A DNA stretch of 64,000 nucleotides from Spiroplasma syrphidicola EA-1. GTDB lineage: Bacteria; Bacillota_I; Bacilli_A; Mycoplasmatales; Mycoplasmataceae. A model generated the notes under the pieces. It was not told the origin of the DNA. It saw nothing but the letters and a program-made list of their open reading frames with translations, and did no database searches. This document shows positions 9,739-32,530 of this stretch, piece after piece (position 1 is the stretch's first letter; each line of letters begins with the position of its first letter). The position numbers were made by a program, and so were the translations under genes. The DNA lies in NCBI RefSeq assembly GCF_000400955.1, contig NC_021284.1, positions 372,001 to 436,000 of the forward strand, given 5' to 3'.

Positions 9739-11844
<2,106 letters not shown>

Positions 11845-30222: not shown

Positions 30223-30367
30223 AGGGTTTTTACCACCTGTCACCTTGGAATTTAGTATAATATTATATACTGTGGATATAATAAAAGCAAGAAAATTTAG
30301 AAATTTTTTGATTTTTGTAGTATAATATTAATGTACGGGTAAAAAATTAATACAGGGGGTTAAAACT

Positions 30368-31882
30368 ATGAACAATCAAAGCAAAGGTAACGAAAATGTA
30401 GGTGAAACAAATAATGGACCACTAATCAATAATAAGTTAGCTGATAATGCAAACATGGCCAATAATAAAGTAATGAGCCAAAATAATTCACAAACAGTTA
30501 CAAATATTGCGAATACAAGTACAGGGGTAAATAAAAATCAGGTGATTAATAATCAAGGGCCAAAGCCAGCACCAGGGCAAGTAATTGGTTCTATTAAGCC
30601 AGTAAGACCGGGTGAACCAATTAAAACAACAGTTGATAATAAAGCTAGTAACCAGCCAAGTGGCCAACCAGTAAAACCAATTGGGCCATCAAATCAACCA
30701 GGTCAGCCAATTAAGTCAAATCAGCCTAATCAACCAGCACAACCAGGTCAAACTAATAACAATGATTTAATTAAACAACTAATGCAAGAAAATCAAATGT
30801 TAAAAAATCAACAACAAAACAATATTGGTCCTGGTTTTAATAATGGTTTTTTAACACCATTATCTAATCCAATGCAATACCCAGGTCCAAGAATGCCAAT
30901 GATGGGTGATCAATATAATCAATTTATGGGTCAACAAATGTTTTCACCATTTGCCCAACAAGGTCATGGTCCAGGTTTTAACCAAATGGGTATGGCTGGT
31001 GGTCCTGAGCAATCAATTCACTTTAATAAACCAATTTATCAAGCTATTGTTTATCAACCTTATGTTTTACCACCAATTAATAATGGTCAACAGCAAAACA
31101 TGCAGGGGATGAATATGTATGATGTAAATCCTCAAAGTTTATCAATTAATCCATTAAATCTTGCTTATGGTCAACAACAAAATAATCCATATTATTTAAA
31201 TGCCCCATCAGCTAACCAATTCCAAACTGCTCCTGGATATCAACAACAACAGTATCCACAACAAAACTATTATCAACCTAACCAACCACCTGTAATTGGT
31301 CAAGATTCAATGAATATGGGATATAATTCACAACAATTTGTTCCAGAAAACCAAGGATATGATTTTGACAACTATAATAATGACAATTTAGCAACAGATA
31401 ATCATTTTGCAATTATGAATCCAGAATTATCAAGTAAAGAAGATTATATTGATCAATGAGATGATGTTAATAACATGGATAATGAATTTATTAATGATGA
31501 AGATCAATATTATTCAGATAATTATGAAAATGATGATAATTATCCAGCTGATTACAATGATGGTTATGATGAAGATTTAAATTCAGACAATTATGATGAT
31601 TTAGGGGCTGATAATTATGACGATTTAAGTCCAGAAAATGATGCTTTATTAACTAAAAAAGAATTAAAAGCGAGTGCTAAAGCAAAAAAAGTATGAGAAA
31701 GAGATCAAAAACGTGCCAATAAGAAGAAATTACCTTTATGAGCTAAAATTATCATTAGTTTATTAGTAATCTTAGTGGTTGCCGTTGGAGTCTTAACAAT
31801 TGTTTACTTTAATGTTCCGGCTTTCCAAGAAATTGTTAATGGGTGATTTGGTATTACAAAAACCTTTAACCCATGGTTCTAA
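30368..31882 (+). CDS. disordered Asn/Gln/Pro-rich tail-anchored protein
   Basis: A 504-residue protein of unknown family. Residues 1-150 are Asn, Pro, Gly, Gln and Lys-rich (QPSGQPVKPIGPSNQPGQPI). Residues 150-330 are Met, Gln, Pro, Gly and Tyr-rich (NPMQYPGPRMPMMGDQYNQF). Residues 330-440 are acidic with many Asn, Asp and Tyr (NDEDQYYSDNYENDDNYPAD). A Lys-rich stretch precedes one membrane helix at about 459-479 (IIISLLVILVVAVGVLTIVY), leaving about 24 residues outside ending NPWF. There is no signal peptide, so nearly all of the protein should face the cytoplasm. The composition recalls proline-rich cytoskeletal proteins of mycoplasma attachment organelles, but no homology is claimed. Confidence 0.85.
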
Positions 31883-31921: not shown

Positions 31922-31951
31922 TAAAAAAACTAGACAGGAGTATGTCTAGTT
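31922..31951 (-). terminator. terminator for the minus-strand 113-residue gene
   Basis: AACTAGACA and TGTCTAGTT form a nine-pair stem. On the minus strand the stem is followed by seven T residues (plus-strand A-run 31923-31929), so it ends transcripts coming from the right. Confidence 0.8.
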
Positions 31952-32052: not shown

Positions 32053-32394
32053 CTATTTTACTGGTGGTAGTTGCACTACTTTAATTAAGAAAAATCATAA
32101 GACAAATCCCAAAATTACTAATAATGGACTTGTGAAGAAATTATTTTGTTGTTGAGAACTAATTTTTTTAGCAACAGGGGCCAAAGATAATTCTTGTTCT
32201 TCTTTTTCAATTACAACTGTTTCGCTATTATTGGTAATAGCATTATTTTCATTAATTTCATTATTAATAATAAAGGCTTGTTCATAATCATTATTATTAA
32301 AAATATTTCATAAAACTTGTGAAGTTGATTTTGGGGCAAACAGACCAAAAGATAGTTTAATTTTATATAAAATTTGGAAAAACTTTTTTTTCAC
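32053..32394 (-). CDS. small tail-anchored hypothetical protein
   Basis: A 113-residue protein visible only when TGA is read as Trp. It starts with GTG at 32394, preceded by AAAGGGGTG at the right distance. The N terminus is basic (VKKKFFQILYKIKLSFGLFA). The middle is Asn and Glu-rich (NNNDYEQAFIINNEINENN). Near the C terminus is one hydrophobic helix (PLLVILGFVLWFFLIKVV), ending QLPPVK. There is no signal peptide, so it would be C-terminally anchored, like its convergent neighbour at 30368. No family is recognised. A matching minus-strand terminator at 31922 supports it as a real gene. Confidence 0.75.
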
Positions 32395-32530
32395 TGTTGT
32401 CACCCCTTTGATAAGTTGATATTAACATAGACAAGATAAAAATAGCAATAGTTTTTTAATCATTTTAAGTGATTTTATTTACCAAATAGGGTAATATTGA
32501 ATAGTAAATTAACACTAAGAGGAGAGTATT

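Follow-up and report, generated by a model that had tools for sequence, protein, structure and literature searches.

A genus-specific disordered protein of Spiroplasma syrphidicola as a candidate membrane tether or scaffold

The tether ZipA consists of an N-terminal anchor, a P/Q-rich linker and, at the far end, a globular FtsZ-binding domain. Other systems place disorder itself at the membrane, such as Caulobacter SpmX, a membrane protein that forms condensates through its disordered region (PMC8849385). Among the Mollicutes, tip proteins of the P65 type are more than half disordered, and DPN(Q)AY, the acidic proline-rich (APR) repeat, marks the P65-type proteins of M. pneumoniae (PMC11940719). 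Wall-less and without flagella, Spiroplasma cells swim and maintain their polarity, and the way in which structures of the cytoplasm are connected to the membrane is an open question (PMC7609405, PMC9663586); the components of the Spiroplasma tip and dumbbell core are largely unknown (PMC5289999, PMC7609405).

The locus described here lies in a stretch of 64,000 nucleotides of the Spiroplasma syrphidicola EA-1 genome (G000), referred to below as the window. Read in code 4, in which UGA encodes Trp, an ORF on the forward strand begins with ATG at 30368 and closes with a stop codon at 31882, coordinates that proved exact, and encodes a protein of 504 aa containing four UGA-Trp codons. The gene, its surroundings and the parts of its product are as follows.

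30253..30265 (+): distal promoter-like TAGTATAATATTA with TATAAT inside, an exact match
30318..30330 (+): proximal promoter-like TAGTATAATATTA, an exact match
30354..30359 (+): ribosome-binding site AGGGGG, read directly and kept in the sister genome G001
30368..31882 (+): gene of the 504-aa tail-anchored disordered protein, a code 4 ORF
30368..31657 (+): low-complexity, predicted disordered cytoplasmic arm, residues 1-430 (composition, AlphaFold2 model)
30758..30820 (+): predicted helix, residues 131-151, missing in shorter orthologues (alignment A1, AlphaFold2 model)
31019..31066 (+): conserved linear motif HFNKPIYQAIVYQPYV, residues 218-233, with invariant or near-invariant columns in A1; 94% identical to G001 versus 79% for the whole protein
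31403..31429 (+): conserved linear motif HFAIMNPEL, residues 346-354 (A1)
31430..31657 (+): acidic D/N/Y stretch, residues 355-430, net charge -25 (composition)
31658..31735 (+): Lys-rich juxtamembrane stretch, residues 431-456, net +8, positive-inside (composition)
31736..31804 (+): single membrane helix, residues 457-479 (hydropathy; helix 457-481 in the model)
31805..31879 (+): C-terminal tail YFNVPAFQEIVNGWFGITKTFNPWF, residues 480-504, net charge 0, a short helix followed by an F-x-PWF end (alignment, model)
31928..31951 (no strand assigned): hairpin, terminator-like on both strands, between the 504-aa protein gene and a convergent small gene

The convergent gene (window 32053-32403, minus strand) encodes up to 116 aa with a basic start, a middle containing N/Q and E and a C-terminal membrane helix, and thus resembles a small tail-anchored protein; its counterpart is recognisable beside the orthologue of the 504-aa protein gene in at least eight other genomes of the genus. 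Elsewhere in the window (9739-11844, plus strand), a 701-aa protein combines an unbroken Asn run, followed by an internal membrane helix, with a long C-terminal part that is possibly built of repeats.

Computed per segment, the composition of the 504-aa protein changes along the chain in the bands that had been described for it, from residues 1-130 (N 20%, P 12%, Q 11%, G 9%, K 8%) through a Q/G/P/M band (residues 161-215) and residues 234-330 (Q 23%, N 16%, P 12%, Y 9%) to the acidic stretch (D 28%, N 16%, Y 12%). Among the 59 putative proteins of the window it ranks first both in peak N+Q content, 43% in 60 residues, and in low-entropy fraction, 65%. A low-confidence AlphaFold2 model, built from a shallow alignment of three rows, gives pLDDT below 50 over residues 1-130 and 150-428, or 410 of the 504 residues, and places helices at residues 131-151, 427-452, 457-481 (the membrane helix, modelled confidently) and 483-494 (the short tail helix), so that the disordered arm of the original prediction finds agreement in both low-entropy composition and predicted structure. 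The Lys-rich stretch, the one membrane helix and the short tail, here of 25 residues, also lie where they had been expected. A hydropathy scan found no hydrophobic 19-residue window outside the C-terminal helix, and the protein thus has no signal peptide, as had been stated. By sequence, hydropathy and model, a single C-terminal helix followed by no more than 30 residues, with no signal peptide, marks the protein as predicted to be tail-anchored, and its long low-complexity N/Q-rich region without predicted fold marks it as predicted to be disordered, or prion-like in composition. The arm would lie in the cytoplasm and the tail outside, given the Lys-rich inside flank in this species, the neutral tail and the missing signal peptide; this species and its sister show the positive flank strongly, but in most orthologues its net charge over 30 residues is close to zero.

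BLAST found an orthologue in each of the 14 genus genomes and none in 234 further genomes of the order. The search for homologues across Spiroplasma that had been proposed was repeated with a profile of the orthologues (A1), and 46 genomes of the family outside the genus yielded no orthologue. In a search of 395 genomes of the class, this profile picked up five outsiders, by a generic membrane helix only. Among the ORFs read behind such matches, those in the family outside the genus are the first helix of PstC, others are zinc-ribbon or Lys-rich membrane proteins, and both were rejected as having only a common generic helix. Searches of Pfam, NCBIfam, PHROG and PDB sequences with the 504-aa protein returned no meaningful relative, and no annotated homologue turned up; a homologue of assigned but unrelated function had been named beforehand as an argument against the proposal. 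No published description was found in a literature search that included the locus tag. The 504-aa protein represents a family, so far undescribed and confined to the genus, within the broadly known class of membrane-anchored disordered proteins. The orthologues in all genomes of the genus argue that its gene is a genuine, conserved one and not compositional noise, and its presence in every genus genome examined and in no other group tested suggests that it probably matters to the genus. A MATE transporter gene and thyA flank it in the loci whose flanks were read, and the order MATE, 504-aa protein gene, thyA is syntenic in most orthologue loci.

Identity to the sister genome is 79% for the 504-aa protein, 93% for the flanking MATE protein and 97% for ThyA. 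Against the same genome, dN/dS is about 0.34 overall and 0.06 for residues 431-504 (dN 0.02, dS 0.32), and the gene is, on these sequence comparisons, under purifying selection. Constraint falls on three islands while the bulk drifts fast: 'HxNKPIYQxIxYQP', 'HFAIMNPEL', which carries zero substitutions relative to the sister (dN 0, dS 0), and the membrane helix with the tail and its F-x-PWF end, to which one species adds an extension of three residues. Columns of A1 that are invariant throughout the genus cluster in the same places (NKP..YQP, H..IMNP, helix and tail). Repeat change is also seen in the disordered arm: the orthologue in G011 (L015:1042-2304, minus strand) contains near-perfect repeats of MPQYPGMMMGYPQ, and the units are different or more degenerate in its relatives G009 and G010.

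Two copies of TAGTATAATATTA had been noted upstream of the gene and taken to suggest two start sites. The copies are both there, exact, and the 13-mer occurs three times in the genome of 1,107,344 bp against 0.24 expected from the dinucleotides of the window, the third copy lying inside an ORF. The two sites differ in how widely they are kept. TATAAT is present at the proximal site, 45-81 bp 5' of the start codon, in all 14 orthologous genes, and the site in this species matches sigma-70 at 10 of 12 positions with a spacer of 17, so that a putative proximal promoter is well supported. Among the 14 genus genomes compared, no others than this species and its sister have an exact distal copy. The region 5' of the gene is nearly identical between the two, and a second promoter is plausible in this species pair only.

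A second disordered, tail-anchored protein with the same layout is encoded in this genome, by a 465-aa ORF (contig ~220100-221497; L032:1601-2998) that lies 5' of topA in the three loci read. Its C-terminus is the second match of the A1 profile in its own genome (E 4.9e-5), the search for paralogues there having been made with profiles only. The family of this protein (A2) is found in 13 of the 14 genus genomes, being absent from G012, and in none of the 46 others of the family, a distribution as confined to the genus as that of the 504-aa protein. The A2 profile in turn matches the C-terminus of the 504-aa protein in 14/14 genus genomes, weakly in some, and in a profile-profile comparison the helix and tail of the two families align (probability 95%, P 1.9e-8), the remainder staying unaligned. 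Like the 504-aa protein, the second protein has a Pro/Tyr/Gln-rich N-terminus, an acidic middle, a basic juxtamembrane stretch, a C-terminal helix and a short tail, YFTVPSVHDLFEGWF in the second protein versus YFNVPAFQEIVNGWF in the 504-aa protein. Unlike it, the second protein carries a conserved C-x3-C-x2-H near its start and an EEYNWAVHISDILDEF helix (L032:1601-2998, L033-L040), has a folded-looking helical domain before the anchor and is lower in N/Q; its aromatic residues are not evenly spaced. On these alignments a common origin of the two anchor modules is likely rather than proven, since generic membrane helices of unrelated proteins reach 19-23 bits against the A1 profile. A PIIxQP-like motif in both proteins (13/14 versus 4/9) is too short to be claimed as common, and no match could be established between the second protein and the S. 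mirum antigen SMM0239, the gene numbering not being fixed. Of 20 genomes from the other MreB-bearing genera (g3, g4, g8, g9, g10, g12), just three contain a clear relative of the topA that stands next to the second protein, at about 36% identity.

The long arm with its two near-invariant short motifs, together with the conserved anchor and tail, leads us to read the 504-aa protein as a genus-specific, single-pass, tail-anchored tether or scaffold at the cytoplasmic side of the plasma membrane, a reading that we hold to be evenly balanced between right and wrong. In such an arrangement, the C-terminal helix would insert post-translationally, so that about 450 residues stay in the cytoplasm and the 25-residue tail comes to lie outside. 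The disordered arm would display at least two short linear motifs (those of the first two islands), along with an acidic stretch and recurring aromatic residues. It would recruit cytoplasmic partners to the membrane, the motifs being what binds them. The conserved helix and tail may provide a further surface for interactions, within the membrane or outside it, and perhaps pair the protein in the membrane; the paralogue-like second protein would use a similar module. The scaffold role, the binding of partners and the orientation are all inferred. One S. phoeniceum assembly, where transposase-like ORFs stand in place of the usual neighbours and the orthologue is intact, counts for the tether or scaffold, the gene having been kept although its surroundings were replaced. 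Also in its favour are the orthologues throughout the genus, the dN/dS values, the conserved islands, the predicted disorder outside helix, anchor and tail, the positive-inside signal and the second protein. Against it, the tail may be conserved just for insertion or stability, the positive flank is weak in most orthologues, the relation to the second protein is likely and not certain, and the fast drift of the arm would fit a simple spacer as well.

In all orthologues 9-13% of the residues in the arm are aromatic, and in ten orthologues these aromatics are spaced more evenly than in shuffled sequences (z -2.5 to -3.7), as would suit a membrane-bound condensate in which evenly spaced aromatic stickers, anchored in two dimensions, concentrate clients in the manner of SpmX. 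These ten orthologues are related to each other, however, and for this species and the three relatives that stand closest to it in the alignment the spacing is no more even than chance (z -0.3 to -0.6). Sequence alone cannot reveal condensation, which is possible for this arm, and the condensate is an unlikely account of the protein as a whole.

The arm might instead be a passive entropic spacer or brush, with only the anchor and tail at work, for instance in binding another membrane protein. It diverges fastest between the sister species (60% identity over residues 1-130 versus 96% over residues 431-504), and its length ranges, depending on the species, from about 230 to 430 residues, but a passive spacer would not need the two arm islands that are nearly invariant across the genus, and this account seems improbable.

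From its composition the protein had been likened, in style only, to proline-rich cytadherence and cytoskeletal proteins of mycoplasma tip structures, and a place in the core of the polar tip, or as a link between ribbon and membrane, is a further rival reading. The layout of the 504-aa protein would fit a ribbon-membrane link. However, both proteins are absent from the genera g3, g4, g8, g9, g10 and g12, which have 4-9 matches to MreB, the swimming cytoskeleton genes, and no N/Q-rich tail-anchored ORF was found near thyA in the 20 genomes of these genera; neither protein therefore appears to be a general part of the swimming machinery. Nor do the 14 orthologues resemble the described tip proteins, no EAGR-box model being among their Pfam matches (E<=0.1) and no DP[NQ]xY in any of them, and the protein of the window has no DP at all. 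None of the 16 proteins in the Triton-insoluble list of S. eriocheiris (PMC5289999), which covers visible gel bands only and whose locus tags are unmapped, could be matched to it. A tip or cytoskeletal role is in sum not supported by these comparisons and quite unlikely; a clade-specific one is possible, as is a counterpart diverged beyond recognition elsewhere in the MreB-bearing genomes. The same list includes a PlsC-type acyltransferase (PMC5289999), and a gene of this type lies three genes downstream of the 504-aa protein gene on the plus strand, an observation to which no weight is attached. Spiralin was also considered, and its distribution did not track the 504-aa protein. It is similarly improbable that both proteins are the founding pair of a class of tail-anchored disordered scaffolds, co-assembling through the helix/tail module into a membrane-bound condensate that would organise the pole or surface of the cell in this one genus.

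The 504-aa protein and the second protein provide two concrete targets, with two defined short motifs, for the link between membrane and cytoplasm in Spiroplasma. The case also illustrates that, where a genome is reduced and AT-rich, low complexity in a protein need not be a by-product of base composition: its gene can belong to the selected core.

With ZipA-type tethers, the 504-aa protein has in common a membrane anchor and an unstructured P/Q-rich arm; it differs in being anchored C-terminally, without a globular FtsZ-binding domain or a Pfam match. Like Caulobacter SpmX, it is a membrane protein whose disordered arm is rich in Pro and acidic residues; in SpmX this arm recruits a client at the membrane. 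SpmX differs by its two membrane helices and a lysozyme-like domain (PMC8849385), the 504-aa protein having one helix and no folded domain, and no sequence relation between the two was found. The P65/APR-type tip proteins of M. pneumoniae are similar in having a long disordered, Pro-containing, acidic region in a Mollicute. The 504-aa protein lacks their DPN(Q)AY repeats, EAGR box and multimerising coiled-coil C-terminus, and has as its own feature the C-terminal membrane anchor.
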